Assembly: GCA_016937995.1 (NCBI GenBank)
Contig: JAFGVM010000082.1
Coordinates: forward strand, 1 to 25,420
Direction of reading: 5' to 3'
DNA from: Candidatus Delongbacteria bacterium
GTDB taxonomy: Bacteria; UBA4055
Length of the DNA stretch: 25,420 nucleotides
This document shows, one piece after another, positions 1,560 through 17,664 of this stretch. The position numbers and the translations under genes were made by a program. A model generated the notes under the pieces. It was not told where the DNA came from and made no database searches. It worked only from the letters and a program-made list of their open reading frames with translations. Each line of letters begins with the position of its first letter. The stretch's first letter is position 1.

Positions 1560-1622
1560 AAGGGACGCAGATCTGCGTCCCTTACTTTTCCCATAGGGTC
1601 GAATAGATGCGTTCGACCCTAC
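1560..1622 (-). repeat. double REP-like palindrome (BIME-like) between LolA-like and barrel genes
   Basis: Two palindromes lie 10 nt apart. The first (1560-1583) is a perfect 24-nt palindrome with core GGGACGCAGATCTGCGTCCC. The second (1594-1621) has 10-bp arms TAGGGTCGAA/TTCGACCCTA and an 8-nt loop. On the minus strand the second starts with GTAG at 1622, only 2 nt after the stop codon of the LolA-like gene. Both could form strong RNA hairpins inside the operon transcript and might attenuate or protect it. Confidence 0.75.
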
Positions 1623-1624
1623 AG

Positions 1625-2359
1625 TTACCTTTTTAATTTTCGTTCTGTGAACATATCCTCATCAAGTTCTATATCATATTCTATCTTGATCGTTTTAAAT
1701 ATCGTTTTGGAATCTTTCAGCAGATTTTTCATTTCAACTTCACCTGCCGACCAATATTTGCCTTCTTTTTTAATGTCTCTGATAGACAACCTTTTCCAAA
1801 GTACTCCGTCTTCGTCATAAAATTCTCCTGCTACAGCGAGAAAATTGTTCTTGTCGATCCATATATAAAATTTACTATACGTATTATCATTATCTTTTGC
1901 TTTGAATTCAAGCTTATAGCAGTCTTTATCATCAACTTTTTCTTCACCAAGAAGTTTGTAGTCATAGTCCTTTCTATTATCACTCATAGACATATCTTCA
2001 TAGGAAAAATCTGAACCGTTAGCAGATTGTTTCTTCTGATGTGATGCTATCTTTCTAACTCTGTTGGTCCTGTTTGAATAGAACCAGATATCATCACCAT
2101 CATTCAGCATTAATACTTTCATCCCCTGGATACGTTTCGGTTTGACATATTCCATTAATGATTTTTCGTTGCCGTTCATAGAATAAGCTATCATTTCAGA
2201 TTCTGTTTTACTTCCGTCAGATTTATATGATATTTCAAGATTAATTGACTTTGAAGTTTTAAAGTTGTCATTAGCTTCACTTTTATCCAGTATCTCATCT
2301 GCTGTGAGAGCGAATATCATATTTACTGTAAATATCAAAGTTAAAATAATGTGCTTCAT
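1625..2359 (-). CDS. LolA-like outer membrane lipoprotein-sorting family protein
   Basis: 244-aa exported protein. Residues 1-20 form a signal peptide (MKHIILTLIFTVNMIFALTA) followed by a mature N-terminus ADEILDKSEAND. The body matches the LolA_like family typified by TP_0789: a run with QGMKVLMLNDGDDIWFYSN, then basic NRVRKIA, then GSDFSYEDMS at about residues 115-124, followed by YKLLGEEKVDDKDCYKLE. The fold is an open beta-barrel that binds acyl chains. The family is regularly found beside RND/MMPL exporters, as here, and is thought to ferry lipid or lipoprotein between the pump and the outer membrane. The start has AAGGA 8 nt upstream. The C-terminus is basic (ERKLKR). Function in transport is established for LolA itself and inferred here. 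Confidence 0.88.
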   Translation of the reverse strand: MKHIILTLIFTVNMIFALTADEILDKSEANDNFKTSKSINLEISYKSDGSKTESEMIAYSMNGNEKSLMEYVKPKRIQGMKVLMLNDGDDIWFYSNRTNRVRKIASHQKKQSANGSDFSYEDMSMSDNRKDYDYKLLGEEKVDDKDCYKLEFKAKDNDNTYSKFYIWIDKNNFLAVAGEFYDEDGVLWKRLSIRDIKKEGKYWSAGEVEMKNLLKDSKTIFKTIKIEYDIELDEDMFTERKLKR

Positions 2360-2397
2360 AATTTGTCCTTATATTTATTTCGTTTTGTTTGTGTATT

Positions 2398-2433
2398 GGG
2401 GACGACTGATAGACGTACCCTACAAACTGATCA
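2398..2433 (-). repeat. degenerate GTAG-headed palindrome and short repeats after the RND gene
   Basis: On the minus strand the RND stop codon lies within a small repeated run (AGTGATTAGTGATCAGT), followed by GTAG and an imperfect hairpin GGTACG...CGTCCCC. The arms (2398-2404 and 2414-2420) carry one mismatch. It occupies the gap before the LolA-like gene and looks like a decayed member of the family at 214-237 and 12078-12103. Confidence 0.6.
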
Positions 2434-5349
2434 CTAATCACTTGCCACTGATTTATCTTTATACTTGATCTTATCCTTCAACGAGATCATTGCGGTTAAT
2501 AAGAATGCTGAACTGATAAAACATGAACCAACACCCAGCACAAGTACAATTCCCATACTTGCTAATCCTCTATGAGTTGCCATACCAATAGATCCAAAAC
2601 CTATCATGGTCGTCAACGATGTCAATAGAATAGCCTTTCCGGTATGCTTAGTAACTTTATCCATTGAATTTCTACCTTCTATCATATACCGATGGAGAAT
2701 ATGCACCCCATCGTCTATACCTATTCCGATAATGATGGGAAGTGCCATGAAATTATTTAAATTGAGTTTCATCTTGAACAGATACATCAATCCCATCATC
2801 CAGACCGCTCCTACCAAAAGTGGTATAAGTGCCATTATTGTATACCTTACAGATCTAAAATCCAGCAGTAATAATACAATAATAACAATTGAACCCAGTA
2901 TGACAGACAGTGTGCCCTTTTCCTTTATCAGGTCTATAAATACCAGCATTATTATAGGTAATCCTGTTATACCTTTGTCGATCTTTTGTGTTTGTTCATG
3001 GAATCTTCTAAGATTCTTCTCCTGCCATATATTTGAATTAGGATAGATCGATATCAGCAAGTTATTGTTGGACGTACTTACGAACCTGTCCTTAATACTG
3101 CTAGGAAGATTATCGAATCCTATAATGGTAGTATCTGAAATATTATAAAGATAACGTCTCAATTCAGGAATATATGCCTTCTGAAAGTCTATTATTTTTT
3201 TATTAGCTTCTGCTGTCGAAGCTATCTTGTTCTTGATCGCCAATATTTTACTGTTATCCTCTCCTGACCTTCCTGCGATCTCATCACATTTTACAATTAT
3301 TTTATTTTTCTCTCCAGAACTTAAAACAGAAAGCTCTCCGATCTCTACAATATTGAAATGTAACCTTTGAAGTTCATCCTTTATTTCAGCAATAACACCT
3401 TCATCCAATTCTTCAGGTGCTGCCTGTTTAAGAATATTATCTCTGTAATCATTCAAAATTCCCTGATTATCCCTCTGCTGTTCCTCATCTACAAAATATT
3501 CGGTTATAGCATCTATTCTGCCTATAATCTCTGTTTTGTCCGCAACTTTTTTTAATTCTTTCACTTTTTCTCTGCATGAATCCAGGTCATTAACAGAGAA
3601 CATTGCGAAATCCGGAGATATTTCGAGTTTTTCTATAATTTTATCCTGAGCTACTATAGCAGGCATTCCGTGCGGTTCAAGTTTCGTCATATCATATTCA
3701 TATTCAAGCTGCATTGCCCCGTATAAAGAAAGTGAAAAAGTTATAGCGCTGAATATCAGGACTATCCAAATATATGAGTTGTGTTTTGAAAGTTTTCCTA
3801 TCCTTTCCATAAAATGGAACTGCATAAATTCACCCAGTCCGTTCATCAACTTATTATCAAAAATAATATTACTGTTTTTTGTAACAAAATCATTTAACCT
3901 TGGAATAAATCCAAGACCCGTAAATTTCATAATTTTTCTTAATATTGGATGCTCTCTACTATCCCAGATAAACAATGAAGGTAATAAAATGAACATTGCC
4001 ATTAAAGCAATAAGTATACCTGATCCCATTGCATAGCCCATTTCAGTAAAAGCCCTGAAACCGGTTATGAACAATGAAAGAAATACAAATGATGTTGTCA
4101 GAGCACCGGTCAATACACCATTCCCAACTGTCAGGAACATCGTTGATATAGCCTTATCGGGTGTATCTCCCTCTTCAAGTGCATCTTTATATCCTGAAAG
4201 AATATGAATGGCAAAATCAATTCCAAGACCGACCAGTATCACTCCAAAAGCAGCTGACATAGTGTTAAGATATTTTAATGTAATCCCAAGCAGTCCAGAT
4301 GTCCATATTATTGATATCACAAGAGTAAAAATAGAATTAAAAGGGTTCCTCCAGGACTTAAATGAGCCGATTATGATGACCATTACTATCAATAGGGCTA
4401 TTAAAGTTGACCAGCCGAAATCACTTATAATTGCAGATTGTTCCTGATAACCGATTATTGGAGTTCCCGCTAATCCTATCTCAAGATCAGGAAATTTATC
4501 CTGGATCTCTTTCATTCTACCTGTTATAATTTCACTCATAATCAGCAAATTATCAAAATCATCAGTACTGATAGAAGGTAAAATTCCAACTAAAAGCATT
4601 GTCCGATCCGAAGAGAAAATATAATCATCTCCGATCAAGAATTTCCTGACACTGTTCTTCACCTTCGCAGAGTCATTATCGTCAAGATAAACACTAAGAG
4701 AATTTACAAAATTATAAATATTATTCAATCCTGACACAGCCTGTGCTTCACCGTCAAGTGAGTTTAAATTCTCGGAATCATCCACAAATTCCTGTTCAAA
4801 ATTATCATTTATATTCCTGAGAAGATCTCTGAATTCTAATGCAGAATACATTTCAGTGAAATTTTTCAAGTCCTTCTTTTTTTGAATTACTGCACCATGT
4901 TTCTCAAAAAAATCAGTATCAAGCTTTGCATCAATTCTTTTTACATAGTTTATTGTATCATACTTTACACCTTCTACAGGAAATACATTATTTGATATCT
5001 GCCATTTCTGCATGAACGATAGATCCTGATCAGCCACTGGTAAAACATGTTCAATTACCGCCAGGTCCTCTGATATCGTATTTGCACACATGATCATTCG
5101 TTCAGTGTCTTTCTTTTCACTGTTTATTGAGATCATTATTACAGCATCTGATGTAAAATCTTCAATAATATTATTGAATGAATCTACTACAGGTACATTT
5201 TCGGGCATCATATCAGCGATCCTGTTCTTAATGCCTATCCCAGCAGTAAAATATATCATCACTAAAGTTATTATGAATACGGTAAAGAGAACTTTATTGT
5301 TGTGTTTTGTAATGATCTTGGCCAGGATTCTATAAAATTTTTCTCTCAT
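2434..5349 (-). CDS. RND/MMPL-family exporter
   Basis: 971-aa inner-membrane transporter with two six-helix halves. TM1 is near residues 20-38, a large periplasmic domain spans about 39-310, TM2-6 run about 312-462, TM7 about 526-546, a second periplasmic domain 547-805, and TM8-12 about 812-956. Each half has the signature of the sterol-sensing/MMPL domain: GLGIDFAIHIL at 374-384 and GIGIDDGVHIL at 875-885, with paired acidic residues in the second. Known relatives (HpnN, MmpL, YdfJ) use proton motive force to move lipids or hydrophobic molecules across the envelope. The start codon has GGAG about 9 nt upstream. It follows the HAD gene by 15 nt and precedes the LolA-like and barrel genes, so the four are probably one operon. 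Both periplasmic domains are long and helix-rich, making the protein bigger than many MMPLs. The last residues (SVASD) are encoded in a small intergenic-type repeat. Confidence 0.93.
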   Translation of the reverse strand: MREKFYRILAKIITKHNNKVLFTVFIITLVMIYFTAGIGIKNRIADMMPENVPVVDSFNNIIEDFTSDAVIMISINSEKKDTERMIMCANTISEDLAVIEHVLPVADQDLSFMQKWQISNNVFPVEGVKYDTINYVKRIDAKLDTDFFEKHGAVIQKKKDLKNFTEMYSALEFRDLLRNINDNFEQEFVDDSENLNSLDGEAQAVSGLNNIYNFVNSLSVYLDDNDSAKVKNSVRKFLIGDDYIFSSDRTMLLVGILPSISTDDFDNLLIMSEIITGRMKEIQDKFPDLEIGLAGTPIIGYQEQSAIISDFGWSTLIALLIVMVIIIGSFKSWRNPFNSIFTLVISIIWTSGLLGITLKYLNTMSAAFGVILVGLGIDFAIHILSGYKDALEEGDTPDKAISTMFLTVGNGVLTGALTTSFVFLSLFITGFRAFTEMGYAMGSGILIALMAMFILLPSLFIWDSREHPILRKIMKFTGLGFIPRLNDFVTKNSNIIFDNKLMNGLGEFMQFHFMERIGKLSKHNSYIWIVLIFSAITFSLSLYGAMQLEYEYDMTKLEPHGMPAIVAQDKIIEKLEISPDFAMFSVNDLDSCREKVKELKKVADKTEIIGRIDAITEYFVDEEQQRDNQGILNDYRDNILKQAAPEELDEGVIAEIKDELQRLHFNIVEIGELSVLSSGEKNKIIVKCDEIAGRSGEDNSKILAIKNKIASTAEANKKIIDFQKAYIPELRRYLYNISDTTIIGFDNLPSSIKDRFVSTSNNNLLISIYPNSNIWQEKNLRRFHEQTQKIDKGITGLPIIMLVFIDLIKEKGTLSVILGSIVIIVLLLLDFRSVRYTIMALIPLLVGAVWMMGLMYLFKMKLNLNNFMALPIIIGIGIDDGVHILHRYMIEGRNSMDKVTKHTGKAILLTSLTTMIGFGSIGMATHRGLASMGIVLVLGVGSCFISSAFLLTAMISLKDKIKYKDKSVASD

Positions 5350-6233: not shown

Positions 6234-7013
6234 ATGAAAGAACAAATTTTTTATATCGGGATCGATCTTCACGGAACACTTATAAATAATGAAGAGAAGA
6301 TCGCCGAAGGTTCGCTTCAATATCTGGAGACTCTTCTAAAAAACAAACCAGACAATTTCAGGATATATATTTGTACAGGCAATGACCTTCTTTTTGTCCA
6401 AAGGAAACTCAAGGATGTATTTGAGCTTTTCGATGGTGCGATCCTGGAAACAGGATGCGTTATCTCCAACGATAAAAAAAGCGAGAACATTATTGTTCCC
6501 AAAGAACTTCTTATCAAGATCAAAGAAGTTGAGGATATATTACTTGATGAAGACCATCCGGAAGTTTATAAATTTGCCAGAAGACTTGCAACTATAAGTT
6601 TATTCACAAAATATGGAATTTCAATACCTGAATTTCATACTAAAATGCAAAATGAGTTAAAAAATCTTGATTTTTGCAGGGTAACAAGGTCCAGTGTAGC
6701 GGTAGATATCCTTCCTAACGGTTTTGACAAATATTCAGGTTTGAAATATGTCGCCGGTGAATACGGTATCATTGTTGCGATTGCTGATTCATTGAACGAC
6801 ATTGAAATGCTTAAACAGGCGGATATAACATATATGCCAGGAAACGCGGATGATCAAACAGTTGAACTACTGGCAAAAACAAGATCAAAAAAAGATCTTT
6901 CGTACAGTATTGAAAAAGACAGTTTTTATATAGCAGGAAAAAAAGAAACGTTCGGGGTAATTGAAATACTTGAGCATTTATACAGAAATTTTGAAAATTT
7001 CAACAGGAAGTAA
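6234..7013 (+). CDS. HAD-superfamily hydrolase (Cof/MPGP-like) with altered catalytic motif
   Basis: 259-aa protein of HAD subclass IIB style. Motif I is IGIDLHGTLI: nucleophile Asp11 is kept, but the general acid/base Asp at +2 is His13. Motif II is ICTGND (Thr48). The lysine of motif III is Lys166 in DILPNGFDKYSG, and motif IV is IADSLNDIEML (Asp185, Asp189). A cap domain lies at about 80-160 between motifs II and III, as in sugar-phosphate, mannosylglycerate-phosphate and Cof phosphatases. The substrate cannot be read from the sequence. It heads a plus-strand operon, 33 nt before the EIIA gene. No good Shine-Dalgarno is seen before the ATG. The loss of the acid/base Asp may mean slowed hydrolysis, phosphate transfer, or a sensing role. 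Confidence 0.85.
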   Translation: MKEQIFYIGIDLHGTLINNEEKIAEGSLQYLETLLKNKPDNFRIYICTGNDLLFVQRKLKDVFELFDGAILETGCVISNDKKSENIIVPKELLIKIKEVEDILLDEDHPEVYKFARRLATISLFTKYGISIPEFHTKMQNELKNLDFCRVTRSSVAVDILPNGFDKYSGLKYVAGEYGIIVAIADSLNDIEMLKQADITYMPGNADDQTVELLAKTRSKKDLSYSIEKDSFYIAGKKETFGVIEILEHLYRNFENFNRK

Positions 7014-7046: not shown

Positions 7047-7493
7047 ATGATATTGTCTGAATTGATCAAACCTGAAAATGTTATATTTGTAGATCAGGAC
7101 AAAGTGAATTCCGCTTTGGAAGATATGGTAAATAAAGCATTTGAACTTAAACTTATAAAAGATCATAATAAATTTTTAAAAGCAGTACTGGAAAGAGAAA
7201 ATATTGTCAGTACAGGTATAGGTCTTGGTATAGCTGTTCCCCATTCAAAAATGGATAATATTGATGAGTTCTTTATAGTTGTGGGTATCCTAAAAAATGA
7301 GATCGAATGGAACTCAATTGATTCAAAGCCTGTCAAAGCAGTGTTTTTGATAGGTGGACCAACGAACGCACAGAAAAAATACCTTGGAATATTGGCAAAA
7401 CTAATGCTGTTGATAAGAAACTCAGCCATCAGGAATAAATTATTTACAGCTAAGGAAAAAACTGACATCACTGAGATATTTAAAGCTTTCTAA
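7047..7493 (+). CDS. PTS EIIA domain protein (fructose/nitrogen type), stand-alone
   Basis: 148-aa single-domain protein of the EIIA fructose/mannitol/Ntr family (PF00359). The signature run is VLERENIVSTGIGLGIAVPH, with phosphorylatable His66 in GIAVPHSK and the following DNIDEF. The family takes a phosphate from HPr or NPr and passes it to an EIIB domain, or acts as a regulator: PtsN in E. coli controls potassium uptake systems. There is no EIIB or EIIC here; the next gene is a cation antiporter. A regulatory role on that transporter is therefore more likely than sugar uptake. Ribosome site GGAGG lies 10 nt before ATG. Paralogue of the N-terminal half of the protein at 14366-15169. Confidence 0.92.
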   Translation: MILSELIKPENVIFVDQDKVNSALEDMVNKAFELKLIKDHNKFLKAVLERENIVSTGIGLGIAVPHSKMDNIDEFFIVVGILKNEIEWNSIDSKPVKAVFLIGGPTNAQKKYLGILAKLMLLIRNSAIRNKLFTAKEKTDITEIFKAF

Positions 7494-7522
7494 TATTTTT
7501 CACTCTATAAGGATTCTTTGCT

Positions 7523-8746
7523 TTGGAACCACACAACTTACTTCTTTACATGGGCATTTTATTCCTGATATCAACAGGTAATAAGATACTTTCCAAAAAG
7601 ATAAATATCCCAGAAGTTACCGGTTATGTAATTATCGGAGTGCTTTGCGGTCAGTCTGTTCTAAATGTATTTAATGATGACATAATAGAGAGTTTAAAAT
7701 ATCTGTCGTCAATTGCTTTGGGGATCATAGCATTTACTATCGGAGTTGAACTCAGATTCAATGTTTTGAAAAAGATAGGAAAATCTATTTTTCTCATCGT
7801 GATATTCGAAGGATTCGCGGCATTTTTTCTTGTATTTTTCTCAGTAAAATATCTGCTTCATCAGGAGACGTTCGTTGCTCTTTTACTGGCTGCTGTTTCT
7901 GCAGCAACTGCACCTGCAGCAACTGTAGCTGTTATCAAACAGTATAAGGCCAAAGGACAACTTACATCAGCTATACTTGCAGTTGTAGGTATAGATGATG
8001 CTCTTGCTTTAATTATCTATGTTTTCGCTGCAAGCTTTTCAAGATCTCTGATAATGGGTTCTGAAATGCATATTTTAAGCACTGTATTATTATCCGTGCT
8101 GTCAGTGTTATTTGCCGTAGTGACAGGAATTATCGCTGCTGTACTGTTTATGTCACTTTTAAGAAAGATCAGAAATGATGAAGTAATCAAAATGGCTTTA
8201 GCAGCATTTATATTCCTTCTACTCGGTATAAGTGAGTATTTCCATTTTTCTGAGCTTTTATCAATTATGACATTCGGTGCCGTACTTACTAACCTTTCCC
8301 CTGTGATAGCAAGAAAAAGTGAGGGTATCATTGAGTTCTTTACACCAATCTTTTTAGCTATATTCTTCATCATAGGCGGTGCACATTTAGATGTTATGTC
8401 CATTAAAAAGATCGGATTGATAGGAGTTGTTTACTTCTTCGCCAGAGGTATCGGTAAGATAGGTGGAGGTACTTTAGGAGCAGCATTAGGTAAAGCACCT
8501 GCCAATATTAGAAAATATATCGGCTTTGCTCTTCTGCCTCAAGTTGGTGTAGCGCTTGCGTTGGCATTATCTATAAATAAAGATTTTAATCAGCCTGAAT
8601 TCGGTGATAAAGGTAAAGAAGTAGCTGTACTTGTTATAAATATATTACTTTTCACAACTATAATCACAGAGATAGTAGGTCCAATATTAACCAAGAAAGT
8701 TCTTATGAAATCCGGTGAGATCGTAAGTAATGGCAGGGAGGATTAA
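7523..8746 (+). CDS. CPA2-family cation/proton antiporter (paralogue 1)
   Basis: 407-aa integral membrane protein with about 12-13 hydrophobic helices, Na_H_Exchanger domain. The motif VVGIDDALAL carries the Asp pair Asp158-Asp159, as in the electrogenic antiporters NhaA and NapA, rather than the QD of KefC. SAATAPAATVAVI before it is the typical substrate-helix region, and RGIGKIGGG carries Lys312 where NhaA has its conserved Lys300 (GK-x-x-G pattern). It would exchange Na+ or K+ for protons across the inner membrane. There is no RCK/TrkA_N domain at the C-terminus; the soluble regulators seem to be the separate EIIA and PII-like neighbours. The start is TTG, chosen because AAGGA lies 9 nt upstream; the internal ATG at 7550 would cut into the first helix. 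Ends 2 nt before the PII-like gene. Confidence 0.92.
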   Translation: MEPHNLLLYMGILFLISTGNKILSKKINIPEVTGYVIIGVLCGQSVLNVFNDDIIESLKYLSSIALGIIAFTIGVELRFNVLKKIGKSIFLIVIFEGFAAFFLVFFSVKYLLHQETFVALLLAAVSAATAPAATVAVIKQYKAKGQLTSAILAVVGIDDALALIIYVFAASFSRSLIMGSEMHILSTVLLSVLSVLFAVVTGIIAAVLFMSLLRKIRNDEVIKMALAAFIFLLLGISEYFHFSELLSIMTFGAVLTNLSPVIARKSEGIIEFFTPIFLAIFFIIGGAHLDVMSIKKIGLIGVVYFFARGIGKIGGGTLGAALGKAPANIRKYIGFALLPQVGVALALALSINKDFNQPEFGDKGKEVAVLVINILLFTTIITEIVGPILTKKVLMKSGEIVSNGRED

Positions 8747-8748
8747 TT

Positions 8749-9084
8749 ATGTATTTTATGTTCATGAAAATAATTGATGTAAATTATAAGGACGATATTT
8801 TTCTTGCTCTTGAGAGTGTTGAAATAACAAAGGCATCTTATATTGAAGCCAGGAATCTCGAAAAATCACTCACTGATGACCTTCCTCTGTTCAAAGGATT
8901 TTTTACTACTGATGAAGAAAAAGAAAAGCAGGTTATCATTGTTACAGCTCTGGTTGAAAGAACTGAGCAGATAGATGAATTTGTAAGTATTCTTGAAGCA
9001 TCAGGACTAAATGTAAGAGAAGAAGAGATCTTCAGGCTGGCTCTTATGCCTGTGACCATGACCTTTGATCCAACAAAGGATTAG
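8749..9084 (+). CDS. PII-like (ferredoxin-fold) small regulatory protein
   Basis: 111-aa soluble protein. The order is beta (FMKIIDVNY), helix (DDIFLALESV), beta (KASYIEARNL), a loop region with LPLFKGFF, beta (KQVIIVTALVE), helix (TEQIDEFVSILEASGL), beta (EEIFRLALMPV). This is the beta-alpha-beta-beta-alpha-beta layout of PII/CutA-type trimeric sensors. The T-loop Tyr and nucleotide-binding glycines of classical GlnB are not evident, so it is PII-like, not GlnB. Its start, with GGGAGG 8 nt upstream, is 2 nt after the antiporter stop codon, so the two are surely co-translated. It aligns over its length with the C-terminal domain of the EIIA protein at 14366-15169, sharing the PLF motif. Probable role (inferred): effector-dependent control of the antiporter, as SbtB does for SbtA. 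Its stop codon overlaps that of the exonuclease gene by 4 nt. Confidence 0.72.
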   Translation: MYFMFMKIIDVNYKDDIFLALESVEITKASYIEARNLEKSLTDDLPLFKGFFTTDEEKEKQVIIVTALVERTEQIDEFVSILEASGLNVREEEIFRLALMPVTMTFDPTKD

Positions 9085-9581
9085 AGTCTCAAAAACAGCT
9101 TTGCACACCCACGCGCATCAGATAAAGCATCATGATGATCCAAATGAATTCCATACCTGTAGCATAAACTGTTCAATCTGGCAGGTTTACATCCTAAAGC
9201 CCTGTATATTTTCATCGTACATTCCCAGCGATCTGCTATTCCCAGCTCAGAATAGTCTAATCCATAATGTTCCATTGTATACTTTAATACATTACGGTCG
9301 AAAGATTCATTGTGAGCAACAACTACCCTATTGTAAAGCCTTTTCTTTATCTCATGGTATATTTTGTCGAAGGAAGGAGCATCTTCCGTATCTTCCTCGT
9401 AAATGCCGTGTACATTAGTGTTGTGCCAGTTGTATTCATTGTATGGTGGTCGGATCAATGCTGAGTATTCTTCTACTATCACACCGTTCTCAACAGTTAC
9501 AATACCCACAGAGCAAATCGAATTTCTCTTTGAAGTTGCTGTTTCAAAATCTATAGCTGTAAAAGTGTTGTTATCTCGCAT
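9081..9581 (-). CDS. DEDDh 3'-5' exonuclease (DnaQ/epsilon-like)
   Basis: 166-aa exonuclease domain. ExoI motif FTAIDFETA gives Asp11 and Glu13; ExoII is VVAHNESFDRNVL with Asp95; ExoIII is HHDALSDARGCA with His150 and Asp155, hence the DEDDh class. VHGI at about 57-60 and LNSLCYRYGI fit DnaQ relatives that bind single-stranded 3' ends. It is domain-only in length, so it is a stand-alone nuclease and not a replicative polymerase fusion. The start codon lies inside the 52-aa upstream gene (11-nt overlap), with only a weak ribosome site, which suggests translational coupling. Converges on the PII-like gene with overlapping stop codons and no terminator between them. Confidence 0.9.
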   Translation of the reverse strand: MRDNNTFTAIDFETATSKRNSICSVGIVTVENGVIVEEYSALIRPPYNEYNWHNTNVHGIYEEDTEDAPSFDKIYHEIKKRLYNRVVVAHNESFDRNVLKYTMEHYGLDYSELGIADRWECTMKIYRALGCKPARLNSLCYRYGIHLDHHDALSDARGCAKLFLRL

Positions 9582-9729
9582 TTAAAGCTCTATTTAATTC
9601 TCTGATTTTCTCAGTAGAATATTTAAAATCTAAAGGCTTCGATCTTACTTGAGAATTCAGTTCTTTTAACTTTTGGAGTTTAATCCAATTTCGAATAATA
9701 TTTTTCTGTATTTTATCAGTTCTTTTCAT
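9571..9729 (-). CDS. small basic protein, co-transcribed with exonuclease
   Basis: A 52-aa reading frame beginning MKRTDKIQKNIIRNWIKLQ and ending RELNRALNAR. It is highly charged, with predicted helices and no signal peptide or membrane segment. I do not recognise a family. Support for it being real: its ATG lies 6 nt after a good -10 in the 9736-9764 promoter, the same geometry as the HAD gene at 6078; the frame runs to the exonuclease start and overlaps it by 11 nt; and it fills the only space between that promoter and the exonuclease. It might bind nucleic acid or the nuclease. It could instead be only a leader peptide that delivers ribosomes to the exonuclease start. Confidence 0.5.
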   Translation of the reverse strand: MKRTDKIQKNIIRNWIKLQKLKELNSQVRSKPLDFKYSTEKIRELNRALNAR

Positions 9730-9735
9730 AAATGT

Positions 9736-9764
9736 AATATGCTATTATCTATCCTAGAAGTCAA
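9736..9764 (-). promoter_or_regulatory. sigma70-type promoter of the small ORF/exonuclease pair, apparently leaderless
   Basis: On the minus strand TTGACT (9759-9764) and CATATT (9736-9741) are 17 nt apart. The -10 element is followed by ACATTT and then the ATG at 9729, nearly the same string as TATATT-ACTTTTT-ATG at the HAD promoter. Confidence 0.5.
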
Positions 9765-9775
9765 TAATAACAAAT

Positions 9776-9940
9776 CTAAATTCCATTCATATCTTCAGAA
9801 TAGTTTTGCGACCATTTTAATGGATTATTTCTCATATAATCTCTAACATTATTCAATTCTTTATCACTTCGTATTATACGATCATAAAAACGAGTATGCC
9901 ATTGGAATGGAATATTGTTGATTGTTGAATATTTTTTTAA
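9776..9940 (-). pseudogene. remnant of a REP-associated tyrosine transposase (RAYT, IS200/Y1-like), C-terminal part only
   Basis: An open frame of about 54 codons without a start, ending in TAG at 9776-9778, reads LKKYSTINNIPFQW, then HTRFYDRIIRSDKELNNVRD, then YMRNNPLKW. The patterns NNIPF-x-W, RF-x-D-x-IIR-x-x-KEL and Y-x-x-NNP-x-KW are the hallmark of the C-terminal end of TnpA_REP/RAYT transposases. The N-terminal HUH catalytic motif and Y1 tyrosine region are missing: the frame runs into the 3' end of the propeller lipoprotein gene at about 9937-9960. The fragment is therefore dead. It is notable because the window also carries GTAG-headed palindromes, the known substrate type of this family. 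Confidence 0.78.
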
Positions 9941-11070
9941 TAAGAATATACTTTTAAATACTGATCTTTTCTGTTTATATAATAAAGCCTGTCTCTCTTT
10001 AAAATTATCTGCTCATCATAATTCACAAAATCATATCCCGGACAGATATCAAGTTTGATCTGCTGTAAGAATACTCCGTCTTTGAATAGATCAACAAGGT
10101 AATCAGTTTTGTTGGTCTCATCCCTTTTTATTGCAGATATTACCCATAATCTTTCATACTTATCATATCCCATCTGAATAATAGCACTTTTAAACTTCGA
10201 TTTGTTATTACTAAAATACCATCTATTATTGTATTCTTTTTCAAAAATAATTAATTCCTCTTCGCTGAAAGGGATCTTCGCGTAATTCTTCATGATAGAA
10301 TAAATGTGATTAGCTTCATGATCATAAACATTTATTTTATACTTGGAATCACTTTTTTCAGCAAAATATATCAGACTGTCAGATGTTGCATAAGCGGATA
10401 AGAACATGTCAAAGAAATTATATTTTTCTCTGTTAAATAGTATCTGTTTTTGAGCTACTTCTTTATAATTTGTAAAATTACTATTTTTAATTGTAAGATT
10501 GTAACTCATGTAAACTTCTTCACCTTCTTCTTTGTAATACACCTGATAACCGATTATTTTATCATCAGTCAATGCCTGATATCTTTCAAAAGGTCCTGGT
10601 TCATTGACTCTGTTTTTATAAAGATAATTACCGTCAGCATCAAATTTCAGCATATCCTGTACTATATAATCATCAACAATAACGGTATCTTTCAAAACCA
10701 TCATCCACCCCGTCATCTCAACTTCACCCGGGCCCTTTCCCCTGCCTCCGAAACTTTTTATGTAATTTCCATTACTGTCGAACTTTTTCAATGTATTGTT
10801 ACTCATATCAGAAATGTAAATATTGTTATTAATATCAACATCAAAATCGTTAAATCTTTTAATTATTCTTGTTGAGTCTGTTGTTGAATTATCTTCACAA
10901 TTTATCGTAAATAATTCAACTGGTTTTATCACGATATCCTTTGTAGATGGAATATTCTTATTTCTGTAGGTCTTCACACCGTTGATCACTTCAATAGTGT
11001 AGTTTTTCTCCTGAACAGTACATGACAACAGACTGAATAACACCGAGATGATCATAAAATGTTTTAACAT
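9937..11070 (-). CDS. 6-bladed beta-propeller lipoprotein
   Basis: 377-aa lipoprotein. I chose the ATG at 11070, not the longer frame beginning at 11133, because GGAG lies 8 nt upstream and the new N-terminus is a clean lipoprotein signal, MLKHFMIISVLFSLLSC, with lipobox LLSC and Cys17. The body has NHL/6-bladed propeller style: FDVDINNNIYISDMSNNTLK, then FDSNGNYIKSFGGRGKGPGE, the typical first blade of the family seen in Bacteroidota (BF3164/DUF5128-like). Probable role: surface or periplasmic binding, function unknown. The gene's 3' end abuts the decayed transposase, so its last codons (VYSY) may be recent. A 6-bp hairpin (AGATTG/CAATCT) at 11094-11109 lies in its leader. Confidence 0.82.
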   Translation of the reverse strand: MLKHFMIISVLFSLLSCTVQEKNYTIEVINGVKTYRNKNIPSTKDIVIKPVELFTINCEDNSTTDSTRIIKRFNDFDVDINNNIYISDMSNNTLKKFDSNGNYIKSFGGRGKGPGEVEMTGWMMVLKDTVIVDDYIVQDMLKFDADGNYLYKNRVNEPGPFERYQALTDDKIIGYQVYYKEEGEEVYMSYNLTIKNSNFTNYKEVAQKQILFNREKYNFFDMFLSAYATSDSLIYFAEKSDSKYKINVYDHEANHIYSIMKNYAKIPFSEEELIIFEKEYNNRWYFSNNKSKFKSAIIQMGYDKYERLWVISAIKRDETNKTDYLVDLFKDGVFLQQIKLDICPGYDFVNYDEQIILKRDRLYYINRKDQYLKVYSY

Positions 11071-11215
11071 GGTTTTGCTCCTGTGTGAATTTGAGATTGA
11101 AAACAATCTATAGTTATTTATTTTATAAGTCAATGCAAATATTTAGTGGAATATTGAAAAACAAAAACATATCTTATTGCTAGATTAGTTATTGTTTAAA
11201 AAAAGGAGAATTTAA

Positions 11216-11968
11216 ATGCAATTATTTAATCCAATTATGTTAGGTATCTTTTTTCTTTTAGTTCTATTTTTTATTTTGGACTTATACCATTTTATAATAT
11301 TAAACAAGAAGATAAAAGACAAAAATGTGACATCAGATTTGCATATTGATAAATATCATGAGTTAAAATGGAGAATTAACACTTTACTCACTGTCGCTAC
11401 AGTTATTGGAATTATACTTGGTTATACAGGATTTGATATTCAGAAAAAACTTACTGAAACTTTTTTAGATTATGATAATAAAATTGCAAAATTAGATTCA
11501 TTAATTGAATCTTCTCAAAAAAAGTTATCCTCTATCAATTCTATTAGTTTAAATTTAGAATCAAAATATTCAAAATTATCCGAAATACCTAAAAAAATTG
11601 AAAATGATATACAGAATGTAAAAACTGATATCAAAAAAGTACAAGATGAAAATTTAAGAAGATCACAAATTTATGTAGTTACGAGCATTCCAATAACAAT
11701 TGGGAAAAAAGATAATGAGGAACAAAAAATTTACTATAAGGATTTAAATACAAACACAAACAATAAATTACCTAGTTTTAATAAACCTCCAATTATACAA
11801 ATTCTCATAAATGAAAAAGAGACAGAGAATATTTCAATCATAAAAAATACAGTTGATTATTTTATAATAACATATAACTATTTGTCCGCTATCACTGATG
11901 AAAACAATATAATTGGAAAAGAAAAACCAAAAACTGGAACATTTGATATTTGGATTTCAAATCAGTAG
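11216..11968 (+). CDS. two-TM coiled-coil membrane protein, unknown function
   Basis: 250-aa protein that I do not recognise. TM1 is at about 7-28 (a Phe/Leu-rich stretch ending LDLYHFIIL). A second hydrophobic stretch at about 55-75 reads INTLLTVATVIGIILGYTGF. Residues about 76-150 are a long coiled coil (KLDSLIESSQKKL, SKLSEIPKKIENDIQNVKTD). The C-terminal 100 residues look beta-rich, from RSQIYVVTSIPITIG to FDIWISNQ. The ribosome site AAGGAG lies 8 nt before ATG. It stands alone, divergent from the propeller lipoprotein, and its third positions are visibly more A+T-rich than those of the neighbours, with long Lys/Asn/Ile runs, which suggests acquisition. The layout resembles small membrane scaffolds or sensors, but no function should be assigned. 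Confidence 0.8.
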   Translation: MQLFNPIMLGIFFLLVLFFILDLYHFIILNKKIKDKNVTSDLHIDKYHELKWRINTLLTVATVIGIILGYTGFDIQKKLTETFLDYDNKIAKLDSLIESSQKKLSSINSISLNLESKYSKLSEIPKKIENDIQNVKTDIKKVQDENLRRSQIYVVTSIPITIGKKDNEEQKIYYKDLNTNTNNKLPSFNKPPIIQILINEKETENISIIKNTVDYFIITYNYLSAITDENNIIGKEKPKTGTFDIWISNQ

Positions 11969-12023
11969 CTATTCATAAAAAGATCCTGTAATCAAATCCA
12001 AGATGACTATTCAAAAGTGGGAT

Positions 12024-12125
12024 TCCTTCCTCTCTTCCCTGCTTCCTGTAAATATTTTTTTTTGTTTAATTCGTTTTGGGGACGAAAAGAAATCGTCCCC
12101 TACGGTAAATTGTAAATTGTAAATT
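12024..12125 (-). repeat. composite repeat: GTAAATT tandem, GTAG palindrome, purine-rich tail
   Basis: Minus-strand order: three copies of a 7-nt unit (GTAAATT in plus sense, 12105-12125, overlapping the kinase stop codon); GTAG; a hairpin with 8-bp arms GGGGACGA/TCGTCCCC (12078-12085, 12093-12100); then an A-rich tract; and the purine run ACAGGAAGCAGGGAAGAGAG ending near 12024. The last part matches the sequence after the palindrome at 15262-15285. It fills most of the gap between the kinase and the coiled-coil gene; no other feature is seen there. Confidence 0.72.
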
Positions 12126-13074
12126 AACCATTGTCAATTGATTGCTTTTCAAGCAATCGTGTCGCTGCTTCCAGATCGATCCGCTTATCACTTTTATAAA
12201 TATTCATATCATCAACAAGCTTATCTTTTAATAGTTCTACAACAATTTTCTGCTTGAACACTGATCCGTGAAGTACCACATAGGAAGCTTCATTTTTTAT
12301 AAGCTTCGAACAATTTCTGACTAAATACTCAAGCTTGTCAACACCTTTATGAATTGCTTTTTCTGCAAAAGGACATCCTTCTTTGTAGGCATCAAAAAGA
12401 AGTTTCGATGCTGAAGCTACCAGATTCTTACCTTGTTCTTTGTAGATAAGGTCATAAAGTTCTTCAGGTTCTTTGATACTGAATTTATTGAAGACCATCT
12501 CCTCAATAACAGATTTTTCTTCATGATGAAATCTGGAATTTAAGGCTAGTTTGATCGCCTGTTTCCCGAACCACTGGCCTGAACCCCCATCATCTATCAT
12601 ATGCCCAAATCCGCCAGTCTTATAAACATTCCCATTTGTATCCTTTCCAAAACAAATACTTCCTGTACCCGAAATAAGTAAAAGACCCGGTTTATTCGGA
12701 AAATAAACATTTAATGCAAGAAGTGCATCTGAACCGAATTCAAGGTCTTTAACAGTAATATTTTGACCTATGGTTGCCCTTGTGATTACATCTATAAATC
12801 TTTGTTCAGCATTTGATCTAGTGGATATACCTGCAAAACCGGCAGAAATATGAAGCTCATATTTTGCTGTAATATTTTTCTTTAGAAGAGAAACCAGTTT
12901 TTTTAAAAGTTTAAACAGATTATCCTCGAACTCAGTTCCGTTCAGAAGATTTGAGGGACCACACGTTTCAGAAAATATTAGATCATTTGTTTTACTTAAA
13001 ACTGAAATATTGGTCTTAGTACCACCACCGTCAATTCCTACGAATAGCTCAGTTGGGGTGCTGTCAATATTCAT
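12124..13074 (-). CDS. BadF/BadG/BcrA/BcrD-family ATPase, N-acetylglucosamine kinase-like
   Basis: Predicted 316-aa sugar kinase of the ASKHA fold. FVGIDGGGTKT near the N-terminus is the phosphate-1 motif; GSDALLALN supplies the probable catalytic Asp; LLLISGTGSICFG is the phosphate-2 loop; and GGFGHMIDDGGSGQWFG is the signature shared with GlcNAc kinases (NagK). Members phosphorylate GlcNAc or glucosamine from cell-wall turnover with ATP. The substrate here is inferred. Three starts are possible: GTG 13104, ATG 13095 and ATG 13074. I prefer 13074, where AGGA sits beside the antiporter stop codon at the same distance seen before the antiporter itself; 13095 would overlap the antiporter by 14 nt. 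Last gene of the EIIA/PII-antiporter-kinase operon. Its stop codon is embedded in a GTAAATT tandem repeat. Confidence 0.87.
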   Translation of the reverse strand: MNIDSTPTELFVGIDGGGTKTNISVLSKTNDLIFSETCGPSNLLNGTEFEDNLFKLLKKLVSLLKKNITAKYELHISAGFAGISTRSNAEQRFIDVITRATIGQNITVKDLEFGSDALLALNVYFPNKPGLLLISGTGSICFGKDTNGNVYKTGGFGHMIDDGGSGQWFGKQAIKLALNSRFHHEEKSVIEEMVFNKFSIKEPEELYDLIYKEQGKNLVASASKLLFDAYKEGCPFAEKAIHKGVDKLEYLVRNCSKLIKNEASYVVLHGSVFKQKIVVELLKDKLVDDMNIYKSDKRIDLEAATRLLEKQSIDNG

Positions 13075-13081
13075 TGCAAAA

Positions 13082-14353
13082 TCATTCCTGGGCATTGATC
13101 TCACCTGCCTTTGTCAAAGCTATCTTAGTTAAAATAGGTCCGATTATCTCAAAGAATATACATGTAGCTGTAACAGTTGTGATCACTACTGATCCAAGCT
13201 GATCTCCTGAAGTGATATTTACACCGTCCACTGTATTTACAACTTTGCCCAGACCTGCGAATTCATACTTTACGATCAATGCCAGACCGATAGCGACTCC
13301 TGCCTGGGAAAGAATTCCGAGACCTACCCATTTCTTTATTTTATCCTCAACATGACCGAACATGGCACCTATCCTTGATCCTCCCACAAGACCAACAGAC
13401 CTTGCAATGATATATAAGACACCGAGTAAACCCAGTGAAGGCAGTGCAGAAACGTGAAGATTAGCACCTGCGAGTGTAAAGAACATTATGAACAATAAAG
13501 GCATGAAAAGTATCATTCTTTCATGGAATTTCTGTACTATATAATGAGGTTGTGTATTAACGATCACCATACCAAGTATCATGTTTGTCAAGATTATTGA
13601 CAAATGAAATAACTCACTCAGACCACAGGCTATAAATGAAAAACCGAATATCAAAATTACAAGACCACCCTCTTTTTTGACCCCTCTTGCAAGTAATGAA
13701 ATAATTACCGCCAGTACTGCACCAATTAATAAACTGAGGAAAACTTCTTTGAGAGGGAACATCATAGCAGCAAGCATATTCCCTGAAGTGTCTCCGGTTT
13801 CAGTCATCAGAAAATATTTTGCCATTGCAGCTGCAAATCCAAAGATAATTATACCAAGTCCATCATCAAATCCAACGATCGCATATAATGCTTTAGTCAA
13901 AGTTCCTTTAGCTTTGTATTCATGGATTACTGCAACAGTTCCGGCAGGAGCACTGGCAGGTGCTATTGAACCGAATATCAAAGCCATGGCAATATCATCA
14001 GTGAAAAGATATACGACTATAAAAACAACAATGAAAGCTGAAAAAGATTCTGCTAATATAATATAAATAATACCTTTACCCAGTTTTTTTAGGATCGAAA
14101 ATTTCAACTCAAGTCCGATACTTAGAGCAACAAAGCTTAATGCTATATCTGTGATGAATGAAAGGTCCTGTTGTATATCATCATGCATAATATCAAATAA
14201 TGACGGTCCCAGCAAAACACCGAAGATCATGTATCCGATAAGGGACGGAAGTTTCATGTATTTCATATTATTACCAATATAAAAACCCACAATAATGACC
14301 GTTCCAAGGATCAGCAATATTGGTATAGATGTTAGTTCTTTTATTTCATGCAT
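13082..14353 (-). CDS. CPA2-family cation/proton antiporter (paralogue 2)
   Basis: 423-aa membrane protein, about 12-13 helices, homologous over its length to the antiporter at 7523-8746. The Asp pair is Asp163-Asp164 in AIVGFDDGLG, again the DD type linked with electrogenic exchange. The preceding segment is IAPASAPAGTVAVIHEYKAK, very close to paralogue 1. At the position of the conserved Lys (GK-x-x-G) it has Leu322, in ARSVGLVGGS. It has a longer loop near 366-385 before the last helices. No C-terminal nucleotide-binding domain. It starts 12 nt after the EIIA/PII-like gene, with AGGA overlapping that gene's stop codon. It would move Na+ or K+ against protons in the inner membrane, probably under control of the fused EIIA/PII-like protein. 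Confidence 0.92.
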   Translation of the reverse strand: MHEIKELTSIPILLILGTVIIVGFYIGNNMKYMKLPSLIGYMIFGVLLGPSLFDIMHDDIQQDLSFITDIALSFVALSIGLELKFSILKKLGKGIIYIILAESFSAFIVVFIVVYLFTDDIAMALIFGSIAPASAPAGTVAVIHEYKAKGTLTKALYAIVGFDDGLGIIIFGFAAAMAKYFLMTETGDTSGNMLAAMMFPLKEVFLSLLIGAVLAVIISLLARGVKKEGGLVILIFGFSFIACGLSELFHLSIILTNMILGMVIVNTQPHYIVQKFHERMILFMPLLFIMFFTLAGANLHVSALPSLGLLGVLYIIARSVGLVGGSRIGAMFGHVEDKIKKWVGLGILSQAGVAIGLALIVKYEFAGLGKVVNTVDGVNITSGDQLGSVVITTVTATCIFFEIIGPILTKIALTKAGEINAQE

Positions 14354-14365
14354 GAGCAGAATTTC

Positions 14366-15169
14366 CTATACGTTCAAATTTCCGTTGATATAATCAATAG
14401 TCTGCATATAGACCATTACTCCCGTTCTCTCAGGAAGTTTATCAATGATATTGTTTATCTTTCTCAAAATATCATTTGTGTTTGTCTTTGGTAACACAGT
14501 GGTGATTATTCTCTGGAAACCCTGTGATTCATCACCCCAGAACTTGGCGAATAAAGGCATAGCGTGAATATATTTGCCTGCGTTATTTCCTTCAATAACT
14601 GAGATATCACATTCACTTACTTCAGTGATAATGCCCATTATCTCATCAAATTTTTCTTCAAGCTGACAATATATGTGAAGCAGGTTGAATTCTTTACTTT
14701 CTTTTTTATTCGTTGCAGACGGTAATGAATATCTTAAAAAACTTTCCAGGACCGCAGTCGGAGTTTTTTCAGAAAGCATTTCATTAACAGCCTGTTCCTG
14801 CTTTAAGATGCCTGATATCGCTGACAAGAATCTGATATGATGATTTCTCTTCTTTTCAGGAGCTATGATAAATACAAAAACTTTTGTCGGTTCTTTATCA
14901 AGTGAATCAAAATCAATACCGTTTAGCACAATGATTATACCTACAATAAATTCGTCTATATTGTCTAAAGCACAATGAGGTATTGCTATTCCGTTACCAA
15001 ATCCGGTAGATCCCAGATCTTCCCTGTCTTTAAGCTTTTTAAATACGTTTTTCTGCTCTGAAGGATCAGTAGCTGCAAGTGATGCAATTTCATTTAAAAC
15101 ACCGTCTTTATCGATGTTCTCTTTTATTATTTTGATGTTCTTTTCAAACAAAAAATCCGAGAGATCCAT
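14366..15169 (-). CDS. PTS EIIA (fructose/Ntr type) fused to a C-terminal PII-like domain
   Basis: Predicted 267-aa two-domain cytosolic protein. I chose the ATG at 15169, preceded by AGGGGAA, over the longer frame at 15199. Residues about 1-150 are an EIIA domain with LKDREDLGSTGFGNGIAIPH; His65 is the phosphorylation site. A short Ser/Lys-rich linker (about 150-160) leads to about 100 residues that align with the separate PII-like protein at 8749-9084: FNLLHIYCQL / FMKIIDVNYK, then ISVIEGNN...MPLFAKFW / ASYIEARN...LPLFKGFF, then IITTVLPKTNTNDILRKIN / VIIVTALVERTEQIDEFVS. Such a fusion would allow one protein to read phosphotransfer status and a small effector. It heads the operon with antiporter 2 and the NagK-like kinase. 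The domain equivalence is my reading by eye. Confidence 0.85.
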   Translation of the reverse strand: MDLSDFLFEKNIKIIKENIDKDGVLNEIASLAATDPSEQKNVFKKLKDREDLGSTGFGNGIAIPHCALDNIDEFIVGIIIVLNGIDFDSLDKEPTKVFVFIIAPEKKRNHHIRFLSAISGILKQEQAVNEMLSEKTPTAVLESFLRYSLPSATNKKESKEFNLLHIYCQLEEKFDEIMGIITEVSECDISVIEGNNAGKYIHAMPLFAKFWGDESQGFQRIITTVLPKTNTNDILRKINNIIDKLPERTGVMVYMQTIDYINGNLNV

Positions 15170-15457: not shown

Positions 15458-17587
15458 CTACTTTATCATTACCATCTTCTTCGTTGCTTCCTTAACCCCA
15501 TTTACCTCAAAAGAATAATAATAAACACCACTGTTCAGTGCAGATGCATCGAAATTTATTGAATATCTTCCTTTATTTTTCAATCCATCAAATAATGTAC
15601 TCACTAACTGACCGTTAACATTGTAAACAACAAGCTTAATCTTTGAATTGTTATGTGGGACAGAAAAGTTTATACTAGTACTAGGATTGAATGGATTTGG
15701 ATAATTTTGCTCTAATTCGTAGTTTTGAATAATATTATTGTCAGTATCATCAATAGATACAAATTGAGAAATATCCATAATGGAAACACCATAATCCAGA
15801 TTGGTGCTATACAGAAGATCGTTTACATATATCATCTTTCCAATATATCTATCATATTTTATGGATTGAAGTAGAGTAATATTATCAATATCCATTATAT
15901 CATAAATAAACAATTCATTCCAATTCGTATCAAATAAAAATAATTGTCCATCATAAATATATGGTCTTGAAAATGATGTTATTGAATTTTGATGTGCACT
16001 TAATGAATCAAGCAAAATCGGAGATGTAGGATCACTGACATCATAGATCTTAAGTCCATTTTTGTAATGAGAAACAAATAAAATATTGTTTCTAATAGCT
16101 AGGGTTGCCCCGTATATACCTAAATCTATAGTTGATTTAAGAGAAGGTGTATCAGGAGAAGAAACATCAATCAGATCAATACATTTAGATTCTAGTGTAA
16201 CATACGCTATTCTGTTTGACACAACTATATCTGTGATCCAGTCTTCTGCAAAATAACTTCCTTTTAAAACCGGATCTCCGGCATCACTTTTTTCATAGAT
16301 TTTAAATTCTTCCAGTGTATTCAAATAAATATAATCCTGATCCTGATCTGAATTCATCGTTGTAAGATCTGTACCTACATAGTCAAAATCATATAATTCT
16401 ACTGGATTTGTTGGGTCAGTAATATCGATCATGAGCATATCAGGTTTTTGGTATGAGTATCCAAGGCATAATATATTATCGTACAAAGACAACGTAAATG
16501 TTTCCCCCAAGGCATTAAAGAAATAACCTATGGAAGTTGGATTATAAGAGTCTCTTACATCAATTATATTTAGGCTATAACCATCAGCTGTTAACAGATA
16601 CCCATCTTTAAATTCAATATCGCGAGCCCTCCTTACAGTTTTTGTAGATCCGAGTAGATAGTCATTAGTTGGATCACTTATATCGATAACATGTATTCCA
16701 TAAAATCCGTCGCAATCATAAACAAGATCACCATCAGCAATTACTCTAAAATCCTCTCCAAGGGAATCATAAGTTCCAGAATAGCTTAGATTATATGGAT
16801 CGGTAATATCAATAACTGAAAGTCCTTTAGCATTGGTACATGCTTTATTTCCTGAGATACTTACAGTAGAAGATGGATTATCTGCTAATGAATCCATAAC
16901 AACAGGATTTTGAATATTTCTTATATCAATAGAAGTAAAATAAACTGAGGATACATATGCAATTGAATCCTGTATCGCTAATCCTCCATAATCATTATTT
17001 GAAATACTTAACTCACTAATAAATTCTGGATTTTCAGGATCTTTAACATCCATAATTTTAAATTTATCAGAGACTCCATAGATCAGAGAGTCAGAAGAAA
17101 GGATTATTGATGTAAAATTATCTCCGCAAGACCACACAATCCCTTCGTAACGAGGTGTTGTATCATAAACATAAAATGCCTGATCATCTGCGATATACAA
17201 AATATTACCGGATTCGATAATTTGTCTCACATTTCCGAAGCCATATGTTCGGTCAATTTCAGGATTTGGAATATCAGAAATATCTACAACAGATATTGAA
17301 TCCTCTCCGCATAAGTAAATTTTTTGATTAAATACACCACCAATACGACCACCAAAAAAATCATCCATTTGGAGTTCACTTATCAATTCAGGATTTAAGG
17401 GATTGGAAACATCGATTATTTCTAGCAAACCGGCATAAGTCAAAGAAAATAGTAAACTATCGCTTTTTTCTATGCTTACTCTTCTCTTAGTCCCATCATA
17501 ATATTCCCCCACTTTGTGATAAATCCCGTAAAGATTAATTGATACACACACCAATAAAAAAACGATCAAAATTCGTAGTGATTTCAT
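15458..17587 (-). CDS. LVIVD-repeat beta-propeller protein with type IX secretion sorting domain
   Basis: 709-aa secreted protein. Signal peptide at 1-21 (MKSLRILIVFLLVCVSINLYG). From about 45 to 615 there are roughly a dozen LVIVD-type repeats, each with a core like IDVSNPLNPELISEL, VDISDIPNPE, IDISDPTNDYLLG or YDVSDPTSPILLDSL, which build propeller blades. Residues 622-709 are a Por/type IX C-terminal sorting domain: the signature NYPNPFNPSTSINFSVP, then VVYNVNGQLV, then NSGVYYYSFEVNG, ending KKMVMIK. The cargo would cross the outer membrane by type IX secretion, be cleaved, and be released or anchored. The binding role of the propeller is unknown. The start has GGGGAA 8 nt upstream. It follows the C1 peptidase gene on the same strand by 77 nt, and has its own terminator. 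Confidence 0.93.
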   Translation of the reverse strand: MKSLRILIVFLLVCVSINLYGIYHKVGEYYDGTKRRVSIEKSDSLLFSLTYAGLLEIIDVSNPLNPELISELQMDDFFGGRIGGVFNQKIYLCGEDSISVVDISDIPNPEIDRTYGFGNVRQIIESGNILYIADDQAFYVYDTTPRYEGIVWSCGDNFTSIILSSDSLIYGVSDKFKIMDVKDPENPEFISELSISNNDYGGLAIQDSIAYVSSVYFTSIDIRNIQNPVVMDSLADNPSSTVSISGNKACTNAKGLSVIDITDPYNLSYSGTYDSLGEDFRVIADGDLVYDCDGFYGIHVIDISDPTNDYLLGSTKTVRRARDIEFKDGYLLTADGYSLNIIDVRDSYNPTSIGYFFNALGETFTLSLYDNILCLGYSYQKPDMLMIDITDPTNPVELYDFDYVGTDLTTMNSDQDQDYIYLNTLEEFKIYEKSDAGDPVLKGSYFAEDWITDIVVSNRIAYVTLESKCIDLIDVSSPDTPSLKSTIDLGIYGATLAIRNNILFVSHYKNGLKIYDVSDPTSPILLDSLSAHQNSITSFSRPYIYDGQLFLFDTNWNELFIYDIMDIDNITLLQSIKYDRYIGKMIYVNDLLYSTNLDYGVSIMDISQFVSIDDTDNNIIQNYELEQNYPNPFNPSTSINFSVPHNNSKIKLVVYNVNGQLVSTLFDGLKNKGRYSINFDASALNSGVYYYSFEVNGVKEATKKMVMIK

Positions 17588-17664
17588 TTATTTCCCCATA
17601 ATATTCATTTCACATTAACATTAACAATGAAAATAATATATAAACGCACTATTTACAAGTATTA

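Follow-up and report, generated by a model that had tools for sequence, protein, structure and literature searches.

The window analysed here, 25,420 nucleotides of Candidatus Delongbacteria DNA that make up an entire contig (C30) of a 2.75-Mb draft genome, encodes two modules built from the same three parts: an EIIA domain of the phosphotransferase system (PTS), a NapA-like cation/proton antiporter (CPA) of the CPA2 group, and a domain with the predicted fold of the PII signalling proteins. In module A the parts are three adjacent genes, while in module B the EIIA and PII-like domains are fused in one protein encoded next to a homologous antiporter. The genes of the two modules, and two neighbours considered with them, are as follows.

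7047..7493, forward strand: EIIA of module A (PTS_EIIA_2, PF00359, 6e-34), with the phospho-acceptor histidine in the motif IAVPH
7523..8746, forward strand: CPA2/NapA-like antiporter of module A (PF00999, 2e-35), motif ATAP..DD..K
8749..9084, forward strand: stand-alone PII-like protein of module A, 111 amino acids, assigned by predicted fold
15169..14366, reverse strand: EIIA-PII fusion of module B (PF00359, 1e-26; predicted structure), motif IAIPH
14353..13082, reverse strand: CPA2/NapA-like antiporter of module B (PF00999, 3e-28), motif ASAP..DD..L
13104..12124, reverse strand: BadF/BcrA-type (N-acetylglucosamine-kinase-like) kinase (BcrAD_BadFG, PF01869, 2e-18)
6234..7013, forward strand: HAD-family phosphatase upstream of module A (PF08282, 9e-18)

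Both modules are compact. In module A, 29 bases separate EIIA from the antiporter, and two bases separate the antiporter stop from the start of the PII-like gene. In module B, the antiporter begins 12 bases after the fusion, whose ATG start codon at 15169 is backed by relatives, and the kinase gene overlaps the antiporter 3' end. Residues 1-150 of the fusion are EIIANtr-like and residues from about 158 to 260 are PII-like; both EIIA matches lie above the curated cut-off of PF00359. A preliminary description, made from the sequence alone, had read 7047-9084 as EIIA, antiporter and PII-like genes and the second module as an EIIA/PII-like fusion with a homologous antiporter and a sugar kinase; the open reading frames (ORFs), Pfam matches and predicted folds agree with this in both modules, and the two histidine motifs and both antiporter DD pairs are present as described. 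Its further claim, that the same parts recur in differing order and fusion state, is borne out by BLAST for the antiporters (37% identity over 402 columns, 4e-83) and the EIIA domains (32% identity over 102, 3e-19), and by profiles and folds for the PII-like parts.

Where the preliminary description has to be corrected is the kinase, which is present at the locus of the nearest genome G001 (L023), absent from that of the same-family genome G011 (L010), and so a lineage-specific passenger rather than a conserved component; its score against the NCBIfam NagK-like model is far under cut-off. The HAD phosphatase was likewise considered and rejected as a member of the unit, since it adjoins the module in G002 (L028) and not in G001 (L009) or other phyla. 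Module A itself is found in the nearest genomes G001 and G002, and module B in G001 and G011. Orthologs of the module A EIIA occupy the same position in G001, G002 (L028), Spirochaetota, Bacteroidota and Fusobacteriota. Candidatus Delongbacteria isolate GH31 is a congener of the window genome.

Neither the 111-residue protein nor the C-terminal extension of the fusion has any Pfam or NCBIfam match. Pairwise BLAST was tried as a link between the two and set aside (E 0.52, not significant), and profiles and folds were used instead. Iterative profiles seeded from either part converge on the same 75 ORFs, a set that includes the loci of the window genome and its relatives, and the best PDB sequence matches of the resulting profile are PII proteins. 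The AlphaFold2 model of the 111-residue protein, with a predicted local distance difference test score (pLDDT) of 85.6, forms a beta-alpha-beta/beta-alpha-beta domain. The Foldseek matches listed for it are all chains of PII proteins or of SbtB, the best at E 6e-5, and the top rows of a structural alignment are all PII or PII-like proteins, the best being 1v3r at Z 8.9 over 83 residues and 2.3 Å. For the fusion, matches to the EIIA part fill the structural-alignment list; the PII assignment there comes from Foldseek rows (4usi, 6yc6 and 2gw8, E 2e-4 to 3e-4), the profiles and the module A model. PF00543 is matched at E up to 1 by 22 of 36 stand-alone relatives (best 5e-10) and by 2 of 27 fusions, and by neither window protein taken alone. 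A PII-like match in Borrelia (PMC6516651) proved to be a DUF2179 membrane protein, unrelated. In a model of the fusion with pLDDT 88.6, residues 1-149 have EIIANtr (1a6j_A) as their best structural match, at Z 24.2 with 148 residues aligned and 1.8 Å. Whether the two small domains might have unrelated folds had been left to structure prediction, which places them in the EIIANtr and PII folds.

The preliminary description had also left to a neighbourhood survey the question of whether the association is confined to this genome; it is not. We surveyed 80 loci from named genomes, all selected by one scan with an antiporter-only alignment that used no information from EIIA or PII; genome-wide statements here and below rest on single-family searches. 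A PII-like domain lies beside the antiporter in 63 of the 80 loci and an EIIA domain in 36, with more than ten phyla represented. These loci hold 87 antiporters, 67 of which have a PII-like domain within 400 bases. Sorted by regulator, 32 antiporters have PII only, 28 the EIIA-PII fusion, and seven separate EIIA and PII-like proteins; the remainder have tandem CBS domains, themselves a sensor (10), EIIA only (2), or no regulator seen (8, several at contig ends). EIIA together with the PII-like domain occurs in Delongbacteria, Fusobacteriota, Spirochaetota, Bacteroidota, Planctomycetota, Cloacimonadota, Neomarinimicrobiota (Fidelibacterota), Kiritimatiellota, Myxococcota, Thermodesulfobacteriota, Auribacterota and Latescibacterota, and Bacillota mostly have the PII-like protein alone. 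By profile search, only 56 of 337 widely sampled genomes have a gene of the PII-like family, mostly in one copy; set against this background, its presence at 63 of 80 antiporter loci exceeds chance. Genes outside the conserved unit do not recur as neighbours across loci.

In the reverse survey, which took 27 PII-like loci outside the genus as its starting point, 11 lie by CPA antiporters, four by Mrp operons, two near ClC genes, and two beside EIIA only. The Mrp neighbours are MnhE/F/G/B plus antiporter subunits, verified with Pfam at L148-L150 and identified by reading at L152. At these four loci the PII-like gene stands directly 5' of the Mrp Na+/H+ antiporter operon, and EIIA is there too in three of the four. 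At L151 and L153, PII-like and EIIA genes are in line with a gene for a ClC-CBS chloride channel/transporter. At L160, a CPA-EIIA-PII set is flanked by Nuo-type and Nqr/Rnf-type genes, a setting that fits a sodium role.

In a tree of 98 antiporters, the module A clade (support 100/99) has nine members from Delongbacteria, Fusobacteriota, Spirochaetota and Bacteroidota, all in the order EIIA-antiporter-PII. The module B clade (100/100) has 35, comprising 28 linked to the EIIA-PII fusion, three to CBS, and four whose regulator is missing or cut by a contig end. Regulator-group labels switch about 20 times on the tree, versus 54 times when shuffled, which indicates that regulators are inherited with the antiporter and swapped now and then. 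Recent tandem duplication of a single module was considered as an origin and rejected, as each of the two antiporters belongs to a supported clade of its own; judged from the tree, modules A and B are two old, widespread lineages. In one locus from Brevinematales (L030:2967-7970), module A-type genes are flanked by genes for a kinase of the FGGY family (glycerol-kinase-like) and for a DAO-family FAD oxidoreductase, an arrangement that resembles a glycerol operon.

The antiporters, 407 and 423 residues long, have PF00999 as their sole Pfam domain, and Pfam detects no RCK domain or KefF/KhtT-type partner in either module. The best PDB match of the antiporter profile is NapA (5bz2, 6e-13; 4bwz is also found). 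In the profile alignment the DD pair corresponds to NapA D156/D157, and K312 of the module A antiporter to NapA K305. DD is present in 100 of 109 aligned relatives. The K305 position is Lys in 77 of the 109 and Leu in 30, the module B antiporter being one of the latter; Leu occurs in 23 of 28 fusion-linked antiporters, 0 of 10 linked to CBS and 0 of 7 whose EIIA and PII-like proteins are separate. Since Lys is kept in the congener L023, this is a tendency of the module B branch. According to Masrati et al. 2018 (PMC6181914), 95% of CPAs have Arg or Lys at position 8 of the CPA motif, the K305Q variant of NapA is electroneutral, and Na+-selective CPA2s typically have a non-polar residue at the fourth motif position. 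By these rules the module A antiporter, with ATAP, DD and K, is therefore predicted to be electrogenic and of the Na+ type, and the module B antiporter, with ASAP, DD and L in place of the NapA lysine, may be electroneutral. Three loci from the same family as the window genome (L012, L014, L024) encode antiporters with a C-terminal EIIA and NN in place of DD, in which the ion site may be altered or dead.

Co-occurrence of two regulatory folds with an antiporter suggests a system in which both act on it. We think it fairly probable that the antiporter of each module exchanges monovalent cations for protons under two cytosolic inputs, the phosphorylation of EIIA and a ligand of the PII-like domain. 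Phosphorylation, binding and gating are what we infer from the composition, folds and conservation described above. The phosphate would pass from phosphoenolpyruvate (PEP) to enzyme I (EI), HPr and the EIIA histidine, and with no cognate fructose/mannitol-type EIIB or EIIC downstream, EIIA would be a regulatory end point, as PtsN is. EIIA and the PII-like part would both attach to the antiporter from its cytosolic side, the PII-like part probably through its P-x-F loop (see below). Following the precedent of PtsN and YcgO, unphosphorylated EIIA, at low PEP, would inhibit, and phosphorylation would release the antiporter. The PII-like part would supply the second input, its ligand being unlikely to bind as ATP and 2-oxoglutarate do in GlnB. 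In module B both inputs would reside on one polypeptide. Exchange would be electrogenic in module A (DD plus Lys) and electroneutral in module B (DD plus Leu), with the non-polar fourth residue favouring Na+ over K+.

The PII-like family does not conserve GlnB residues Q39, K90, R101 and R103: its consensus, aligned to 2gw8, has a, i, g and t at these positions. By this alignment the family has the PII fold but no canonical ATP/2-oxoglutarate site, and with those residues absent a ligand is assumed for it. Where canonical PII proteins have the T-loop, there is a short helical stretch in which a P-x-F motif is conserved, reading PLFA in the fusions; the F is present in 33 of 36 stand-alone proteins, L206 and F207 in 27 of 27 fusions, and P205 in 26 of 27. 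We take it as a probable docking segment. EIIA might be the only real input, and the PII-like domain an adaptor or assembly factor that binds no ligand and keeps EIIA attached to the antiporter; the loss of the GlnB residues and the fusion to EIIA in 27 aligned proteins would both suit such a role. This is unlikely in our estimate: the 32 antiporters with a PII-like domain and no nearby EIIA imply that the domain must act alone there, and SbtB, CPII and PstA are PII-type proteins that bind ligands at non-canonical sites.

The first input requires a phosphorelay. As the preliminary description reported, the window contains no EI, HPr, EIIB or EIIC gene, but EI and HPr are encoded elsewhere in the genome, adjacent on contig C14, with the motifs GGSTSHAAIM (EI) and GLHARPA (HPr) and active-site histidines intact. 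An HPr kinase gene adjoins a mannose-type EIIA on C2. Profile searches with working controls found no EIIC (PF02378) or EIIB (PF02302) in the window genome or 12 others. The window genome does have mannose-type EIIB (C26) and EIID (C14) and may possess a split mannose-type PTS using its own EIIA. On C14 (L112:7456-8874), EIID is beside HPr and EI, and a neighbouring 215-residue membrane protein at the usual place of EIIC has no Pfam match. All six EIIA_2 domains of the window genome are fused to or encoded beside non-PTS transporters: apart from those of the two modules, they are found as the C-terminal domains of CPA antiporters on C43 and C9, as the C-terminal domain of an APC-family amino-acid permease (C84:1402-3249, L115), and in an EIIA-CBS fusion just before a CitMHS/ArsB-type carrier on C12 (L116:4492-6655). 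Among 37 genomes with EIIA-antiporter loci (in one of which, L062, the fusion is cut by a contig end), 33 have EI and only one, that of Ilyobacter, has a PF02378 EIIC. We considered EI presence as a test of EIIA phosphorylation and discarded it as not discriminating, as EI is also found in 12 of 13 genomes in which the antiporter lacks an EIIA; it shows possibility, not linkage. Of the two halves of the earlier proposal that the antiporters are gated jointly by phosphotransfer and a ligand sensor, the first is strengthened by this relay, by the absence of fructose/mannitol-type EIIB and EIIC and by the transporter ties of every EIIA_2, and the second comes out weaker for want of the canonical ATP/2-oxoglutarate residues.

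EIIA could instead work without being phosphorylated, as a fold that contacts the transporter in the manner of the cytosolic domains of SLC4 anion exchangers. Those of Band 3, AE2 and NDCBE do match the EIIA part of the fusion at Z of about 12-15, and no EI is seen in four of the genomes with EIIA loci (two of them Latescibacterota; all drafts). The conservation makes this quite improbable: the histidine of the PH motif is retained in 63 of 63 EIIA domains (53 by pattern, 10 by eye), those of EI-less genomes included; R49, E50, T55, P64 and H65 are invariant in the alignment of 27 fusions; and EI is present in the great majority of the genomes, as given above. Mere co-transcription, in which EIIA serves a sugar PTS or nitrogen relay elsewhere and the antiporter is only a neighbour, could draw on the sugar-kinase-like gene that ends module B, on the gene order at L030 and on the split mannose-type PTS, but is very improbable given the absence of fructose/mannitol EIIB and EIIC from 13 related genomes and of EIIC from all but one of 37 locus-bearing ones, a linkage that holds across several phyla and fusion states while outside neighbours do not recur, and the direct fusion, within the window genome itself, of EIIA to an APC permease as well as to antiporters.

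Several observations nevertheless weigh against two inputs converging on the antiporter. Eight of the 27 PII-like loci outside the genus are near neither an ion transporter nor EIIA. The mannose-type EIIA, EIIB and EIID of the window genome would be other customers for its relay; EI is as frequent where the antiporter has no EIIA, and the four EIIA-locus genomes without a visible EI count here too. In a congener (L023), the K305 position of the module B antiporter is Lys, so the predicted electroneutrality is not uniform even in the genus. A simple complex would have a symmetry mismatch, since PII proteins normally form trimers and CPA2 antiporters form dimers.

Each of the regulatory principles invoked here has a known counterpart. 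In Escherichia coli, the unphosphorylated form of PtsN binds YcgO, a K+/H+ antiporter, and inhibits it; binding is weaker once PtsN is phosphorylated (PMC11808508). TrkA and KdpD are further proteins on which PtsN acts (PMC13104625). The modules resemble PtsN-YcgO (CvrA) in having an EIIANtr-fold protein, which there acts on a cation/proton antiporter with its phosphorylation state as the switch. YcgO, however, is a CPA1 protein with RCK/CorC-type cytosolic parts, and its PtsN is encoded elsewhere, whereas the modules have a CPA2 antiporter without RCK, a PII-like partner, and an EIIA that is fused or encoded in the same operon. PII proteins are known to act on transporters in GlnK-AmtB, SbtB-SbtA and PII-NrtBCD, where, as here, a PII-fold protein is encoded with a membrane transporter; the modules differ in having a cation/proton antiporter, no canonical ATP/2-oxoglutarate residues, a P-x-F segment at the T-loop, and fusion to EIIA. 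KhtT-KhtU and KefF-KefC also pair a CPA2 antiporter with a separate soluble regulator in its operon, but those regulators are RCK or flavodoxin-like and the signals are c-di-AMP/pH or glutathione adducts, while the modules use EIIA and PII-like folds and an antiporter without RCK. TtNapA, the closest solved antiporter (5bz2, 4bwz), shares the DD pair, and differs from the module B branch, most of which has no K305 equivalent; we know of no dedicated regulator of NapA.

The preliminary description knew of no system of this exact composition, and we found no description of an EIIA/PII/antiporter system in the open-access literature (preprints were outside the scope), which is not proof of absence. 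Apparently undescribed are the combination on one antiporter, the EIIA-PII fused protein, the multi-phylum spread and the Mrp linkage. More tentatively, EIIA plus the PII-like domain, adjacent or fused, might be a general two-input regulator of ion transporters across phyla (CPA2, Mrp and perhaps ClC), through which a PEP relay without a matching sugar permease would directly set Na+/K+/H+ balance, with the fused branch driving lysine-less, perhaps electroneutral antiporters. If true, it would be a widespread tie between the salt and pH balance of the cell and its metabolism. It is common for PTS-like relays to have no matching sugar permease, often with no clear purpose; here every EIIA_2 domain is tied to a transporter. 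The fusion, if a widespread regulator, would merge two textbook signalling proteins onto one exchanger in a single polypeptide. In phyla that lack model organisms, the modules offer testable targets for carbon and energy control of ion homeostasis, and the naturally lysine-less branch of NapA-like antiporters bears on the disputed mechanism of electrogenicity (PMC6181914).

A scan for promoters and terminators gave 52 matches versus 44.8 expected by shuffling, near background; the only well-placed ones are a TTGACA-16-TACATT site (15232-15205), which lies 36 bases ahead of the start of module B, and a hairpin of 12 pairs (15434-15408). Beyond module B, large secreted proteins are encoded at 15458-21180 (reverse strand) and 21337-24114 (forward strand): one has LVIVD repeats and a type IX secretion sorting tail, one is a papain-family protease that also has a lectin-like domain, and one is Golvesin-C/MAM-like. 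On the other side of module A, positions 268-5349 (reverse strand) encode, consecutively, an MMPL/RND transporter, a LolA-like lipoprotein-sorting protein and a porin-like protein.

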